From: Gentiana macrophylla
Taxonomy: Eukaryota; Streptophyta; Magnoliopsida; Gentianales; Gentianaceae
DNA length: 64,000 nucleotides
NCBI GenBank assembly: GCA_026214975.1
Contig: CM047817.1
Span: forward strand, 94,406,773-94,470,772
Direction of reading: 5' to 3'
Each line of letters starts with the position of its first letter. The stretch's first letter is position 1. The notes beneath the pieces are model-generated. The model did not search any database, had not been told where the DNA came from, and saw only the letters and a list, made by a program, of their open reading frames with translations. Made by a program: the position numbers and the translations under genes. Below are positions 3,896-49,093 of this stretch, piece by piece.

Positions 3896-5381
3896 TGTTG
3901 GGGAGGATTTTGCATCAATAAAAACAAAAGAAAATTTATAACCCTAACCTATATGCAAAACTAACTCCTAACCGACCAAAACATCGGGTTGTTGCTAGTA
4001 GAGCGTAATGAGTAAGGGTCGATCCTCGTGGAAAGGTATGTAGAATCTAATCTAATTAATCCTCTCAATTGCTACTCATGAAAACGAAAGAACGAAAGAA
4101 AAACATAAAAACATAAAGAACAGTCAAGATAAATCTAACCTAAGAAACATAAAAAACAATCTAAACTAAAGACATGGAAACAACCAATATACAACCTATG
4201 TGATCTCAATCCTAGTTCAATTCATGATTCTAATTCAAGTTGTGGTTTCACCTTTTCACGAGACATAAACCCCTAATTCCTTAGTGAATTTATTCTCAAA
4301 CTACGGATTCCTAAGTCCTTAGTAAATCCAATTTATCAATCTCTCATCTTCCGAATGTTGAGACTGATTTTCAATATAAAACTCGGTGTAGATTCAATTA
4401 ACTCTCGTTTTTAAAGAACCTAACAACCTAGATCAATAACTCATTAACTTGTCACTTAATCAACGGTTAAAGACCCTATCTTTCTATGGTGATCTAGTGT
4501 TTACGCAACTTCCGTATTATAAACATCAATCAAAACGAATCTTTCAATTCTATTCTCATGGCATTCAAATCGCATAGAAAAGATACAAAGAGAATTAAAG
4601 ATCATAAAATAAAAGCTGGAATTAAATTAATCAAAAGAGAACTCACATAGTCTTGAACAATGGTTGAATCACCATGAAAACGGAAAAGAAAATCTACATG
4701 ATCTACTCCTAATCTAACCTCGGTTCACCCGAGCACAAGGCTCGGGTGACCGGCCTTCAACTCTCCAAGATGCGGCTGAGCTCTCTTTTTGATGTGAAGA
4801 AAAATATGGATGATATTAGGGTTGGGGCGATGGCTGTTTATATAGAAGTTTAAGTCGGTTGGCTCAAAGTCGGCGGTGGACGCTCGTCCGCTTTTATGAA
4901 CGCCCGTCCAGAATGCTTGGACGGAGGATGGACGCCAGTTCACCTAGCGTCTGAACTCTCTGTATTAGTTTCGACCCCCTGGACGCTCGTCCTCATCTTC
5001 AAACGCTCGTTCAGCCTGTTGCAAAACGGATTTCTTGATTTTTCCATCTTTATCTCGATTGATTTCCTTCCTTATCTCTTTTATTCTTCCATATCTTTAA
5101 TTGATCCTCTTCCATCTCGAATTTAGCCTTTTAGGATCATCTTTTCCATCATTAATTGGGTATCTACAAATATCAAAAACATACCAAAACATAACACAAT
5201 TCCAAAATAATATAAAATCACAAATTAACCCTTAAATCGATATGTTTTCATATTTAATCATTAAAAACCTCATTTACTCAATTAATTAATTATAAGCTCG
5301 ATATCTATGAAAATAATCCATATATGAGGGAAATTGATATATAAAACATATGTGAAAATCACTACAATTTGACCCTAAACA
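3896..5381 (-). repeat. element C 3' LTR
   Basis: Direct repeat of 8104-9596. It ends CCCTAAACA on the plus strand, followed at once by ACACCCCCACACTT, the complement of the polypurine tract. It contains a cluster of GGACGCTCGTCC-type motifs at about 4877-5015. The outer junction at 3880-3900 carries an extra 17-bp copy of an LTR-internal sequence found near 3980. Confidence 0.9.
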
Positions 5382-6825
5382 ACACCCCCACACTTATCTT
5401 TTTGCTCGTCCCCGAGCAAAGCAAAACAAGAACATACTTTCAAAAATCCACATAACCCATACACGACGAGATATAGTCAAAATCATGACACGCTAGTATT
5501 CAAAGAAATCGACCTCACTCGGTGATGTGTGTGCCGAACCTACTAAACTTCCACCGATCCTCTCTTGACTTATTACATCAAGCACTAACAGTTATCCGGT
5601 CAACTAAACGAAAACTTCATTCTATCTACAACACTTACCTAACAAAACTAATTACCAAGAACATAGTAACCAACTCACAACTAAATTACTTTACTTAGTG
5701 CCAAGAAAATACCTCTCGGGTCTCTACTGGGTTTAGATCAACTTGACTTAGAATTCCAAAAAGCGTATATTTTATATTTTAAGTTTCCTATCGTCGCGTC
5801 TCAAAAGTATAACACACTCCCTACATTATTAGGCGATCACCCCGAGATCACTCAAACCCTTCTTGTCAAAGGTAAACCACACTCCCCAATTGGGGCGAGA
5901 TCCAAATGGACTCGAGGTGATAGATATAAACAAAATTCCCATAAAGAAATTCTATTCATTTATTATTTATAGATATATATATTTTTATATTTTTCAAACT
6001 CTTTGGAAACTCTCGGTCAAATATATTTCTAACACATTCAAGACTCTCAAAGTTCTCAAAAACACTAAGGTAATGAGATTCTAAGCTGTGAGTATAGCAC
6101 AAGTTCTTAACTTTCATTAATGCTAAGTAAGTGTTATCTCAGATCAAGAATTAACTTTCCTTTAACTAACCGAAACTATTCTATATTTGGCTCTTCATCT
6201 AATAGGTTCGTGAAATGAAGTTCAAGTGAGTATCGACTTACTAAACCTATTCTTAGAACATGATATGACTAATGATAACAACTAAAGGTGCCAGATTATA
6301 AAACTAGCATGCCAGTGAAATGTTACTCGGGACGAAACAAAAAATTTGAAAATTAAGCACTTTTCATAGAAATACTAAAAATATGAGCAAATGAAAGTAG
6401 ATACATAAATCATCTATCCCTTCCCCCACACTTAGATTGCAACTTGTCCTCAAGTTGTGCAAAATAAAAGAAAAGAGAACTTAGCTGATTGTAGTTCTAA
6501 AGAAGCAAGTCTGGAATGGGTGCACCTCACCTTGAAATGCTTGACGAATCCAGTAGACTGTGGACCATCCACCGGAAAACTGATATCGTCTGAAACGCAC
6601 AATTGCTAACGAAAACATCCTGCACACTTGAACAAACATGAAATACCTCGGGGCTAGGGGAGTAAAACATATAAAGCACAGGAAAAGAAAGGTCGAAGAG
6701 ATTTTTCAACTTAGGCTCACATAAAGATGGAAAGCACATACATGAAATATTACAAAATAGTAAGCTAGGTGCAATAAATGCAATACAATGCAAACTACAT
6801 GAAAAAAAATCCTAAGAAAATAAAA

Positions 6826-7455
6826 GAGTGATGGTATATGGAAAGCCAACAGTAACCATACTCGAAAAAAACGAGGTAGTACGGAAAACCGATGATTAAC
6901 TACACTCAAGAAAAATAAAAGAAAGAAATAAATGATGTGGTGTTACGGGAACCGACAGTGACCACACTTAAGAAAAATAAAAGGAAAAATAGAAAAACAA
7001 TGCAACTAAATGAAATGCACCTAAATGAAATGCAATTATATGATATGCAAAAAGAAAATAAAATAAAAGAAAGAAAACTAGCCCATTAATTGCAACATAG
7101 CATGCATATAAACGTCTACCACATAATGACAAAGTTACGATAAACGACATCTTTGTTCATTACATGCAATGTAGACGCGCCTTAAGACTCATCAAAGGTG
7201 ATAGCATTATGGAAACCAACAGTTAGCTATACTAAACAGATATAACTCATATGGACCGAGTTGTAGCATACGGAAAACCGACAGTAGCTACCCATATGAA
7301 CTATAAAAACAAAGGAAGCACGTAAGTCTTAAAAGCTTAAAAGATTCATCGGAGCGGTATGTAGCATACGGAAACCGACATTAGCTACTAAATAACTATA
7401 AGAACAGTTATAGCTTACGAGAACCGACAGTCACTATAACTTGCCTAGATGAATC
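6826..7455. repeat. array of seven co-varying hairpin repeats
   Basis: Seven units share a core close to TACGGAAACCGACAGT, each bracketed by complementary arms: 6826-6863 (GAGT-g-ATGGT with ACCAT-ACTC), 6873-6907 (GAG-GTAGT with ACTAC-a-CTC), 6936-6966 (TGTGGT with ACCACA), 7198-7232 (GT-g-ATAGC with GCTAT-AC), 7263-7291 (GTAGC with GCTAC, plus outer TCATATGG 7247-7254 with CCATATGA 7292-7299), 7361-7388 (GTAGC with GCTAC) and 7406-7441 (AGTTATAG with CTATAACT). GATTCATC 7343-7350 pairs with GATGAATC 7448-7455 around the last two. Arms differ between units but stay paired. Confidence 0.8.
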
Positions 7456-7635: not shown

Positions 7636-7772
7636 TCAGACCGGACGGGCGTTCATCCAGTCAAACGGGCGTTCAATGGAAATTGTAGCCCTGGACGAGC
7701 GTTCAACAAACAAACGCTCGTTCCCTGCAAGTTAAGGACTGGACGGGCGTTCACTTACCTGAACGCTCGTCC
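7636..7772. repeat. cluster of GGACGGGCGTTCA-type motifs
   Basis: Six or so copies of a 12-13-bp motif in both orientations (GGACGGGCGTTCA, GGACGAGCGTTCA, GAACGCTCGTCC) within 140 bp. The same motif clusters in the C LTRs (4877-5015, 9090-9235) and in the D LTR (62696-62842), so it is a family feature. Its function is unknown. Confidence 0.7.
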
Positions 7773-8081
7773 AAACATCGAAACACCACGAAAAAGCAGA
7801 AAACACAAAGAACCCTAAATACTCAAAGATGCTTTGTATACACAATAACATCACAAAGAAACCACATCGTAACATAGCACGAGAGGTTAGATTAGTAACA
7901 ACTAAACACAAACTTCGTAAAAAAAGATTGAGTAAAAACTTTTGCACATTCTTAACCCTACGGTCATCGAAACACGGCAAAATAAAAACTCTCAATCTAT
8001 TAAACGCTACTTTTATTGAAAAGGAAAAGCGAACGTAACAAAATCGAGAACTAACTTAACTAGATTCAACATGACACCTAT

Positions 8082-8099
8082 TCCCCGGCAACGGCGCCA
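8082..8099 (-). other. element C primer binding site (tRNA-Asp type)
   Basis: Read on the minus strand this is TGGCGCCGTTGCCGGGGA, identical over 18 nt to the site at 57888-57905 in element J. This PBS is typical of the Athila/Tat gypsy lineage. It lies 4 bp inside the 5' LTR. Confidence 0.85.
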
Positions 8100-8103
8100 C
8101 TTT

Positions 8104-9596
8104 TGTTGCGGAGATTTTGCATCAATAAAAACAAAAGAAAATGTATAACCCTAACCTATATGCAAAACTAACTCCTAACCGACCAAAACATCGGGTTGTT
8201 GCTAGTAGAGCGTAATGAGTAAGGGGTCGATCCTCAGGGAAAAGGTATGTAGAATCTAATCTAATTAATCCTCTCAATTGCTACTCATGAAAACGAAAGA
8301 ACGAAAGAAAAACATAAAACACATAAAGAATAAATCAAGATAAATCTAACCTAAGAAACATAAAAAACAATCTAAACTAAAGACATGGAAACAACCAATA
8401 TACAACCTATGTGATCTCAATCCTAGTTCAATTCATGATTCTAATTCAAGTTGTGGTTTCACCTTTTCACGAGACATAAACCCCTAATTCCTTAGTGAAT
8501 TTATTCTCAAACTATGGATTCCTAAGTCCTTAGTAAATCCAATTTATCAATCTCTCATCTTCCGAATGTTGAGACTGATTTTCAATATAAAACTCGGTGT
8601 AGATTCAATTAACTCTCGTTTTTAAAGAACCTAACAACCTAGATCAATAACTCATTAACTTGTCACTTAATCAACGGTTAAAGACCCTATCTTTCTATGG
8701 TGATCTAGTGTTTACGCAACTTCCGTATTATAAACATCAATCGAAAACGAATCTTTCAATTCTATTCTCATGGCATTCAAATCGCATAAAAAAGATACAA
8801 AGAGAATTAAAGATCATAAAATAAAACTGGAATTAAATTAATCAAAAGAGAACTCACATAGTCTTGAACAATGGTTGAATCACCATGAAAACGGAAAAGA
8901 AAATCTACATGATCTACTCCTAATCTAACCTCGGTTCACCCGAGCACAAGGCTCGGGTGACCGGCCTTCAACTCTCCAAGATGCGGCTGAGCTCTCTTTT
9001 TGATGTGAAGAAAAATATGGATGATATTAGGGTTGGGGCGATGGCTGTTTATATAGAAGTTTAAGTCGGTTGGCTCAAAGTCGGCGGTGGACGCTCGTCC
9101 GCTTTTATGAACGCCCGCCCGTCGAATGCTTGACGGGAGGATGGACGCCTTGATTCACCTAGCGTCTGAACTCTCTCAGTATTAGTTTCGACCCTGACGC
9201 TTCGTCCTCATCTTCAAACGCTCGTTCAGCCTGTTGCAAAACGGATTTCTTGATTTTTCCATCTTTATCTCGATTGATTTCCTTCCTTATCTCTTTTATT
9301 CTTCCATATCTTTAATTGATCCTCTTCCATCTCGAATTTAGCCTTTTAGGATCATCTTTTCCATCATTAATTGGGTATCTACAAATATCAAAAACATACC
9401 AAAACATAACACAATTCCAAAATAATATAAAATCACAAATTAACCCTTAAATCGATATGTTTTCATATTTAATCATTAAAAACCTCATTTACTCAATTAA
9501 TTAATTATAAGCTCGATATCTATGAAAATAATCCATATATGAGGGAAATTGATATATAAAACATATGTGAAAATCACTACAATTTGACCCTAAACA
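8104..9596 (-). repeat. element C 5' LTR
   Basis: Partner of 3896-5381. Most of its length is unchanged between copies; the differences bunch at about 9112-9205, inside the GAACGCCCGTCC motif cluster. It is followed at 9597 by the resumed RT gene of element B. Confidence 0.9.
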
Positions 9597-30772: not shown

Positions 30773-33604
<2,832 letters not shown>

Positions 33605-37102: not shown

Positions 37103-38443
37103 TTAGTTTCTTCTTCTTTTACGGGCTTCCTCCAGCCTCTGGCTTCTTCTAATAAACGAGTGTTTCTTTGCTTGTGTATTCATAATTGTGCCCATGTTGG
37201 AAGGCGGATAAGGCTGAACAAGACTGCCGACAAACTCCAACTCAAACTGTTTCACGTAATCATAGCCACGCCCGCCAGGTGCTGGAAACCGCTGAATTTG
37301 ACGACTAACACAATCATACAATAACATCAACCCTCCGTACAAATCATAAAAAATTAGTTTTACCTTGTGATTATTATCCCTAAAAAGCGCCACGGGGGTT
37401 AATGAGTGCAAGCCACATGACCGCAAATTGTATATGGGTATCCTAATCACGGAATCCTTCAAGCCATAAACCCACAAGTCATAACTATACGTTGCGACTG
37501 CCCGAAAATAATACTTCCAATCATAGCTTAAAACTAGACAACCATTCAACACACTCAATCTCAAAGAATTACTTTCCTCGAGAACTTTGGGTACCGGTAA
37601 AATCTTGTGTTTATCCGTTATAAGATCAAATGCTAAAATGGAATTCTTGTGTTTATTACCACCGGAAAGTGGATGATTGTTCCTTAATATCCAATGCAAA
37701 GTACAATTAACTAAGACCCCATCCGAGCATAAATAATATTGACAAATGGAGTAATAACGAGAATCTAGATTTGATCGTACCCTACTCCATGAATCGGATC
37801 TCAGACTATAGACTTCAAATTCATACTCATATTCATACTCGTGTATATTCATCAAACCCGTATCAGAATATGGTCGAGAGCTTGCTATTATAACCTTGTA
37901 ATCGTCGTGGACATCATCATATCCAAAACCGTAACAAGATATTCTTCTTTTGCTCATCTTTTTCTGATTTTGATCATTAACGAGCCCCGGCCTTTTAGGC
38001 AATTTCCAATATAACTTTGTGAGCGGATTGCACAATGTTATACCGCATTCCGAATATCCATTACGACCCAAAATTTGACAGAGTAAACCATTACAAGTGC
38101 CTACAATCCTTGCCTTCTTGTCAATGTTTAATCTTTCAAAAGGGTGTTGGAGCCGTTGAATTTCACAGCCTACTTCCAAGCTCTTTCCGACAATTGAAAA
38201 TTTTAACACGTGTATTTGCTCGGATCTAGTTCTTGTTCCCTTGTCGCGATCAGTTTTTTTAACGATTATGTTTGGTTTTATGATGATGCGATGCTGATTT
38301 ATAAGATGCATTTTGATGAATTGCGGGCCTGAAATCAGAGCGTTCCATGATTTCAATACGCTTTTAAATTGACCAAGGGTTTTTGGTGGCAATCTCACCA
38401 AGACAAGAGCCAATAGATCATCAGGCAAATAAGAAATCCTCAT
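37103..38443 (-). CDS. F-box protein with F-box-associated interaction domain
   Basis: A single-exon, 446-aa frame, complete from ATG (38443) to stop (37103). N-terminal F-box at residues 3-48 (YLPDDLLALVLVRLPPKTLG, then FKSVLKSWNALI), expected to bind SKP1 in an SCF ubiquitin ligase. The remainder is a kelch-like F-box-associated domain: RIVGTCNGLLC, TLCNPLTKLYWKLPK, CYGFGYDDVHDDYKVI, VYSLRSDSWSRV, LHWILRNN, ILAFDLITDKHK, SVLNGCLVL and VIRIPIYN. It ends in a basic tail (RRSQRLEEARKRRRN) that is also kept in two of the pseudogenes. It is the only intact member of a local cluster and faces the opposite way. Substrate unknown; pollen SLF-type or general FBA proteins are both possible. Confidence 0.92.
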   Translation of the reverse strand: MRISYLPDDLLALVLVRLPPKTLGQFKSVLKSWNALISGPQFIKMHLINQHRIIIKPNIIVKKTDRDKGTRTRSEQIHVLKFSIVGKSLEVGCEIQRLQHPFERLNIDKKARIVGTCNGLLCQILGRNGYSECGITLCNPLTKLYWKLPKRPGLVNDQNQKKMSKRRISCYGFGYDDVHDDYKVIIASSRPYSDTGLMNIHEYEYEYEFEVYSLRSDSWSRVRSNLDSRYYSICQYYLCSDGVLVNCTLHWILRNNHPLSGGNKHKNSILAFDLITDKHKILPVPKVLEESNSLRLSVLNGCLVLSYDWKYYFRAVATYSYDLWVYGLKDSVIRIPIYNLRSCGLHSLTPVALFRDNNHKVKLIFYDLYGGLMLLYDCVSRQIQRFPAPGGRGYDYVKQFELEFVGSLVQPYPPSNMGTIMNTQAKKHSFIRRSQRLEEARKRRRN

Positions 38444-47965: not shown

Positions 47966-49093
47966 TGGCGATCAAGAACTAAATCCGAGCAAATACACAT
48001 GGTAGAATTTTCAATCATCGGGAAGAACTTGAATTAGGCTGCGAAATTCAATTCAACGGCTCCACCACCCTTTTGAAAGTTTACATATTGATCAGAGGCC
48101 GGCAAGGATTGTAGGCTTTTGTAATGGCTTACTTTGTCAAATTTTCGGTCATGATGAATATTGGGAATACGGATACGGCATAGCTTTGTGCAATCCGCTC
48201 TCAAAGTCATCTTGGAATTTGCGTAAAAGGCCGAGGCTCGTTAATGATCAAAATCGGAAGAAGATGGCCAAAAGGAGAATATCTTTTTACGGCTTTGGAT
48301 ATGATGATGTTCACGACGATTACAAGGTTATGATAGCAAGCTATCGACCATATTATGGTACGGGTAGTTCAATGAAGGTTCACGAGTATGAATATGAATA
48401 TGAATTTGAAGTCTATAGTCTGAGATCTGATTCATGTAGTAGGGTACGATCATATCTAGATTCTCGTTATTACTCCATTTGTTGTCAATATTCATTCTCG
48501 GAAGGGGCCCTAGTGAATTGTGCATTGCATTGGATATTGAGGAACAACCAGAAGAATTGCATTTTAGCATTTGATCTTAGAACGGATAAACACAAAAAAT
48601 TTCGAGTACCCGAAGTTCTAGAGAAAAATAATGATTTGAGTATGAGTGTGTTGAATGGTTGTCTAGTTTTAACCGATCATTGCGAATATAATCTTGTGGC
48701 AGCAGCAGCAAATAATTTTGATTTGTGGATGATGAAGGATTACGGCTTGAAGAATTCCGTGATTAGGATACCCATAGTCAATAAATTGCCGTCAAATAGC
48801 TTGCGCATCCCCGTGGATTTTTTTAGGGATAATAATCGCAAGAGAAAACTCGTTTTTTATGATTTCCACAAAGGGTTGATGTTGTTGTATGATTGTGTTA
48901 GTCATCAAGTTCAGCGGTTTCCAGCTCTCGGTGGCTATGGTTACGCGAAACAGTTTGAGTTTGTCGGCAGTCTTGTTCAGCCTAATCCGCCTTCCAACGG
49001 GGACACAACTAAAAATAGAGAAGCATGGAAACACTCGTTTTTTTAGAAGAAGTCAGAGGCTGGAGGAAGCGCGAAAAAGAAGAAGAAACTAAA
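47966..49093 (+). pseudogene. F-box pseudogene 3 (5'-truncated by copia F)
   Basis: Homologous to the intact gene from its residue about 70 to the C-terminus; the F-box itself is absent. Near the 5' end a one-base deletion (about 48,030) and a 5-bp duplication (ATTCA, about 48,050) break the frame. A long open frame follows to 49,046: CNPLSKSSWNLRKRP, GFGYDDVHDDYKVMIAS, EVYSLRSDS, ILAFDLRTDKHK, VLNGCLVLTD and VIRIPIV. It stops just before the basic tail, which persists in another frame (RRSQRLEEARKRRRN). A truncated 286-codon product from an internal start is conceivable but unsupported. Confidence 0.88.

Follow-up and report, generated by a model that had tools for sequence, protein, structure and literature searches.

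The window, by which we mean the whole 64,000-nucleotide stretch of Gentiana macrophylla DNA that was analysed, contains an array of small hairpins inside an LTR retrotransposon. The element that bears them lies on the minus strand, so its transcribed RNA is the complement of the strand read in the earlier note. Its terminal and priming features are, in the order of the transcript:

8104-9596, minus strand: 5' LTR, first in the transcript, beginning TGTTTAGGG and ending CAACA
8081-8099, minus strand: primer binding site (PBS) TGGCGCCGTTGCCGGGGAA, 4 nt after the LTR, which we take to be of the tRNA-Asp type
5382-5395 (edges approximate), minus strand: polypurine tract (PPT) AAGTGTGGGGGTGT, preceding the 3' LTR
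3896-5381, minus strand: 3' LTR, paired with the 5' LTR by BLAST

The BLAST alignment of the two LTRs spans 1,500 columns and shows 98% identity, 11 positions being mismatched and 19 gapped; in a MAFFT alignment the pair shows 24 substitutions over 1,481 aligned positions (K2P 0.016), from which, at the plant rates that we assume, the element would be about 0.6-1.3 million years old. A perfect target duplication is lacking, the 5 bases next to one end of the element being different from those next to the other, and to judge from the flanking ORFs the element interrupts a Copia-like (Ty1/copia) pol. The internal domain measures 2.7 kb, its longest stop-free stretch is 107 codons, and none of the 10 internal ORFs contains a Pfam family at cut-off. 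The combination of LTRs, PBS and PPT with no gag, pol or env coding supports the classification of the element as LARD-like and non-coding, and the earlier note was right in calling it a non-coding LTR retrotransposon.

Like the LARDs, of which Sukkula of the Triticeae is an example, the element joins LTRs, PBS and PPT to a non-coding internal domain of kilobase scale, and it belongs to a multi-copy family with a uniform coding-free structure, the 3' third excepted. The LTRs of Sukkula are about 4.4 kb long, as against about 1.5 kb in the element; great LTR length probably marks the earliest LARDs described and not the class as a whole, hence the term "LARD-like". With an internal domain of 2.7 kb and LTRs of about 1.5 kb it is not a TRIM, a class with short LTRs and almost no internal domain. 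Rfam searches of the window at gathering scores gave neither a Cassandra-type 5S rRNA-like LTR nor a retrozyme hammerhead, and no family for the array; three snoRNAs elsewhere were the only hits. Diaspora of the Athila/Calypso group (Ty3/gypsy) resembles the element in having its PBS a few bp past the LTR and a long non-coding leader, and the PBS of the element may be of the same tRNA-Asp type; the element differs in having no gag-pol. The excerpted description of Diaspora places its tRNA-Asp PBS 5 bp past the LTR, and gives an unusually long non-coding leader of 873 bp (PMC1142308). Excerpts on Retand, a plant Gypsy element with some non-autonomous members, likewise describe non-coding repeats inside the element; these stand in tandem in the region that separates pol from the 3' LTR (PMC11963269), whereas the hairpins of the array are dispersed, have arms that covary and lie in the 5' half of the internal domain. 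A lineage survey is given in PMC6317226.

Eight hairpin units of a single design are present in the window copy:

7406-7441, minus strand: U7, first in the transcript, arms AGTTATAG/CTATAACT
7361-7388, minus strand: U6, arms GTAGC/GCTAC
7263-7291, minus strand: U5, arms GTAGC/GCTAC
7201-7230, minus strand: U4, arms ATAGC/GCTAT
7129-7156, minus strand: eighth unit, new here, arms ACAAAG/CTTTGT
6935-6967, minus strand: U3, arms GTGTGGT/ACCACAT, with one G.U
6876-6903, minus strand: U2, arms GTAGT/ACTAC
6831-6859, minus strand: U1, arms ATGGT/ACCAT

On the minus-strand RNA each unit runs as 5' arm, a loop of roughly N-ACUGU, CGG (or UGG), a U-rich loop, a CCG-type triplet, UA-N and 3' arm, the 3' apical triplet being CCG, CCA or, in U7, UCG. 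The unit stem is mostly 5-8 bp, the internal loop is asymmetric and the apical stem is short. The seven hairpins of the earlier note, with the arms it gave, all lie where it had placed them; its count was incomplete, as it had missed the unit at 7129-7156, and its apical stems are amended in unit 7 to CGG/UCG with a G.U pair. U1 is missing from some copies of the family. In U3 and U2, and in part in U5, the common sequence extends past the core, which indicates that duplication has occurred.

The arms differ in sequence from unit to unit and yet pair. In the seven units as they stand, Watson-Crick pairs form at 35 of 35 arm positions; of the 5,040 orders in which the 3' arms can be dealt among the units, 2 reach this number, namely the identity and the swap of two identical arms. 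Arms of at least 5 bp are present in 6 of the 7 units, whereas dinucleotide shuffling of the flanks around unchanged cores gives 2 such units in the best of 2,000 trials; the arm of the seventh is 4 bp under the core definition used for the flanks. Dinucleotide-shuffled sequence is the yardstick proposed in the earlier note. Across copies, the inner five bases of the arms fall into 14 types among 95 distinct units (109 less 14 filtered out, all from a unit finder that itself requires pairing), with variation at every one of the five inner pairs.

The units are further gathered into three domains:

7343-7455, minus strand: domain I, in which helix 7448-7455/7343-7350 encloses U7 and U6
7182-7332, minus strand: domain II, in which helix 7325-7332/7182-7189 encloses U5 (with its base) and U4
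7113-7177, minus strand: domain III, a long hairpin between U4 and U3 with the eighth unit at its tip

Domain III is built from stems 7171-7177/7113-7119 and 7157-7163/7123-7129. The base helix of U5, 7292-7305/7241-7254, contains the palindrome CATATG and counts 14 bp when read off the window copy and 13 pairs in the RNAalifold consensus. Two longer outer pairs had been proposed earlier as signs of a larger fold, and both lie at the positions claimed: 7343-7350/7448-7455 is the enclosing helix of domain I, and 7247-7254/7292-7299 is part of the larger base helix of U5. The larger fold itself gains the further helix around U5 and U4. The enclosing helix of domain I is absent from the RNAalifold consensus, and 96.8% of its cells are paired in 50 distinct copies. 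When the array is folded as a whole to minimum energy, some of the units do not appear.

The element is one of many. In the 1.79-Gb genome to which the window belongs, a string of LTR end plus PBS has 1,482 exact matches, the U5 pattern ACTGTNGGTTTNCCGTATGCTA has 962 and a 3' motif of the element has 530, the reversed control giving 0 in each case; in a direct genome search, 40 of 3,645 candidates were scored and 40 of the 40 matched. Two lists of elements were drawn up without use of the array, and array sequence is present in all 26 of their distinct elements (18 of 18 from the PBS list and 13 of 13 from the 3' motif list, 5 being common to both), indicating that the array is a regular part of the family. 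From the first 18 PBS places on one contig (C1), 12 were fetched and 12 contained array sequence; of the other 6, 3 coincide with elements already fetched as L208, L209 and L211 and 3 adjoin an exact U5 match. Among the first 13 motif places, the 10 that were fetched all contained it, and 3 adjoin an exact U5 match. Two of the fetched copies, L207 and L210, contain part of the array, and the unit finder recognises a single unit in either. The array starts about 0.6-0.7 kb past the PBS and lies in the 5' half of the internal domain; the parts that vary between copies are the leader before it, with pairwise identity down to 0.46 in the 12 PBS-chosen copies, and the 3' third. In many copies the latter (5396-6320 in the window) is replaced by another sequence, and the replacement 3' thirds of L228 and L229 are 97% identical to each other, so that 3' modules differ between subfamilies. 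At L173 (G000:C4:36018000-36027500) copies of the element stand head-to-tail with shared LTRs at a period of about 5.0 kb.

No autonomous partner was found among 12 other contexts of 9-10 kb; as far as lengths go, none has an ORF of more than 150 codons inside the element, and 3 of them show one matched LTR. The 12 PBS-chosen and 10 motif-chosen copies, at 1.1-1.3 kb read from each, all belong to the same coding-free family. A separate PPT class, considered as the possible autonomous partner, proved to be a 3'-module variant that is non-coding in the two 1-kb places read.

The conservation of pairing between copies was assessed with shuffles, slid controls and permutations. The main set of 55 copies comprises the 30 best ranked by similarity to this array and 25 from exact U5 matches, a choice that biases the figures for alleles, domain I and II pairing, G.U against A.C and loops, above all in U5. 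L178, L179 and L182, which are the same places as L186, L187 and L188, were dropped before this set was formed, and L185 was dropped from alignment A3 as short. Identical rows were counted once in the analyses of domains I and II, G.U against A.C, shared variants, domain III and the eighth unit. Within this set, 96.3% of the cells of domain II pair in 52 distinct copies, compared with 31-48% when the partners are slid; 12 cells carry two-sided changes, a number reached by none of 500 shuffles, and 3 pairs show two-sided change, reached by 44 of 500. The inner C-G of U4, for example, becomes A-U in 10 of the 52 distinct copies. In domain I 98.2% of cells pair in 50 copies, against 29-57% when slid; two-sided change there does not clearly exceed chance (199 of 500 shuffles attain the 1 pair so changed, and 38 of 500 the 2 cells), and its covariation score is reached by 1 of 500. 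Of 28 copies, 21 have U-A as the inner pair of U1, 4 have U.G and 3 have C-G.

The core of the eighth unit is found in 52 of 55 copies, the other 3 being left out of its analysis. At this site other copies have ACAG/CTGT or ATAGT/ACTAT instead of ACAAAG/CTTTGT. Among 41 distinct flank pairs, matched arms of the three states occur in 11, 5 and 6, and a lone arm of the same states in 10, 2 and 9. The mean best arm is 4.41 bp, a value reached by 1 of 5,000 reshufflings of the 3' flanks, whose mean is 3.89 bp; arms of at least 4 bp are present in 29 of 41, a small excess over a shuffle mean of 25 and maximum of 32.

The helices also change less than their surroundings. In the 30 best copies the minor-allele frequency is 0.016 in arms versus 0.060 in linkers, and in the 25 other copies 0.056 versus 0.103. 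Twelve PBS-chosen copies, picked to lack the exact U5 string, give for domains I and II an identity of 0.962 in the enclosing helices, 0.907 in the arms, 0.911 in the apical segments counted with their loops, 0.887 in the base helix of U5 and 0.747 in the linkers; the internal loops stand at 0.705 on the 5' side, no better conserved than the linkers, and at 0.789 on the 3' side, and the leader upstream of the array at 0.722. Taken together, the covariation among units and among copies, the greater conservation of stems than of linkers and the excess of G.U over A.C (see below) make it very probable, even though some of the tests are not significant, that the RNA structure of the array is under selection, as the earlier note had proposed.

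The same data bear on an explanation free of function, in which hairpin-templated copying errors (quasi-palindrome correction) perfect the arms of a duplicated array. Such correction yields paired changes without selection, the likeness of U3, U2 and partly U5 past the core shows that duplication did occur, and a comparison of shared with rare variants lends selection no significant support: pairing is kept by 6 of 9 variants common to at least 4 copies and by 19 of 46 rare variants (p = 0.15), and the slid controls give values from 3 of 16 to 7 of 12 for shared variants, to be compared with the 6 of 9 of the real helices. Correction of this kind should, however, erase G.U and A.C alike. In the helices of the window copy the departures from the commonest Watson-Crick pair comprise 76 G.U versus 22 A.C cells, besides 14 cells with another Watson-Crick pair and 62 with other mismatches, and 11 versus 3 pairs have at least 2 such rows. 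As G.U persists, and as the best-conserved class is that of the long-range enclosing helices, we regard copying errors as a markedly improbable source of the array.

The helices of the RNAalifold structure, which was chosen on the same alignment, show a similar asymmetry (118 versus 17 cells and 12 versus 2 pairs), the cells in both counts not being independent of one another; in U7 a U.G pair is present in 53 of 54 copies. The excess of G.U over A.C favours the minus-strand RNA, which is the expected transcript. Folding energy alone is a weak argument and if anything favours the other strand: over the array as a whole the transcribed strand has a z-score of -3.2 and its complement one of -4.7. 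The strand bias also bears on the proposal that the units are palindromic elements of the DNA, such as transcription factor sites. Palindromic CGG-CCG motifs are indeed described from the 3' LTR of Sireviruses upstream of the TATA box, and in some beside env (PMC2829016). The motifs of the array are split by an asymmetric loop and lie internal to the element, and a strand-specific G.U bias is unexpected for a DNA site, so that this reading is barely plausible.

In the leader before the array, window positions 7636-7795 form strong G+C-rich hairpins GGACGAGCGTTCA/TGAACGCCCGTCC with a z-score of -7.3 in the transcribed strand. A related sequence lies within the LTR at 4877-4911, and the stretch is very variable between copies.

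Conserved RNA secondary structure has been reported in coding-free LARDs and TRIMs, according to the excerpted text of PMC7215508; the general idea is therefore not new, and the array is a reiterated hairpin form of this known LARD-type conservation. What sets the element apart from LARDs is that its structure consists of one small hairpin, reiterated with interchangeable stems. The earlier note had considered such an array undescribed, and this stands for the array itself, in that no description was found in the literature searched (not every search being aimed at the array) and the exact spellings of the core are absent from it; it does not extend to conserved RNA structure in LARDs and TRIMs as a whole. 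Viral contigs were considered as a source of relatives and rejected: the matches look like chance, and of 135 loci from the matches listed none contains the core twice, and the most significant BLAST alignment with the element has an E-value of 0.026.

The family has no coding capacity, yet it has many copies and the LTRs of the window copy have a K2P of only 0.016, so cis-acting signals for help in trans are needed. The array, with its several hairpins, is best explained as such a cis-acting signal, carried by the RNA of a coding-free, LARD-like element that would move solely with the proteins of an autonomous relative. Since the structure lies after the PBS, is repeated and tolerates changes in its stems provided that they stay paired, it resembles a protein recognition signal. 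Retroviral packaging signals are sets of stem-loops read by Gag, located after the PBS in the genomic RNA, and the array is like them in having several stem-loops downstream of the PBS; it differs in that its units are copies of one design and its role is putative. By this analogy, the chances appear evenly balanced that the array serves in packaging or recognition by the Gag of a helper, whose nucleocapsid would select array-bearing RNA for packaging, the reiterated hairpins providing a multivalent recognition platform. This use, which the earlier note had suggested beside dimerisation, is the likeliest of those considered, given where the array lies and what the element needs. A more specific version, in which the array is a modular docking platform, the coding-free element competing for the Gag of another element by means of eight copies of one hairpin whose stems drift as long as they pair, is offered tentatively. 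The internal loop of U7 is highly variable between copies (identity 0.62-0.73) and does not suit a site of protein contact, while that of U6 is nearly invariant. On the 5' side of the U7 loop (7427-7433) multi-base changes and small insertions are seen, its stems hardly changing. A general ACTG-to-ATCG conversion was considered as the origin of variable internal loops and rejected: 10 such swaps occur in 29 copies, no more commonly than other adjacent swaps, and 7 of the 10 fall at one site beside U7.

Selected structure could also be used in another step, namely the nuclear export, stability or translational silencing of the unspliced non-coding RNA through a host protein. The structural evidence fits this equally, and export elements too are built of repeated hairpins that contain an internal loop, the retroviral CTE-type elements being an analogy for export via a host protein; nothing specific points to it, however, and we consider it unlikely. 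Alternatively, the hairpins might assist dimer linkage, or strand transfer by the reverse transcriptase, with the variable number of units and the swapped 3' modules as by-products. The unit finder does count 3 to 8 units per copy (some of them doubtful), the 3' third differs between subfamilies, and the palindrome in the U5 base could be added to these. Dimerisation or strand transfer would not in itself demand paired changes in small stems, though, and the apical loops are U-rich and without self-complementarity, which makes this proposal distinctly unlikely.

If the array does serve as such a docking platform for a helper's Gag, then to our knowledge no packaging element had been defined before it in any non-autonomous LTR retrotransposon of plants. 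The array is a concrete candidate for the signal by which the proteins of helpers select coding-free LTR retrotransposons in plants. It is conserved while the leader preceding it drifts, it offers many natural variants for comparison, and it gives a clear prediction for particle-associated RNA.

Elsewhere in the window, on the plus strand at 31252-32173, the three H/ACA snoRNAs found by Rfam stand in a row, one snoR74 and two snoR135, followed shortly by an ORF at 32580-32969 that is presumably ribosomal protein L17-like. Two further ORFs, 37103-38443 on the minus strand and 48186-49046 on the plus strand, are alike by eye and opposite in orientation, and we take both to be F-box-like.
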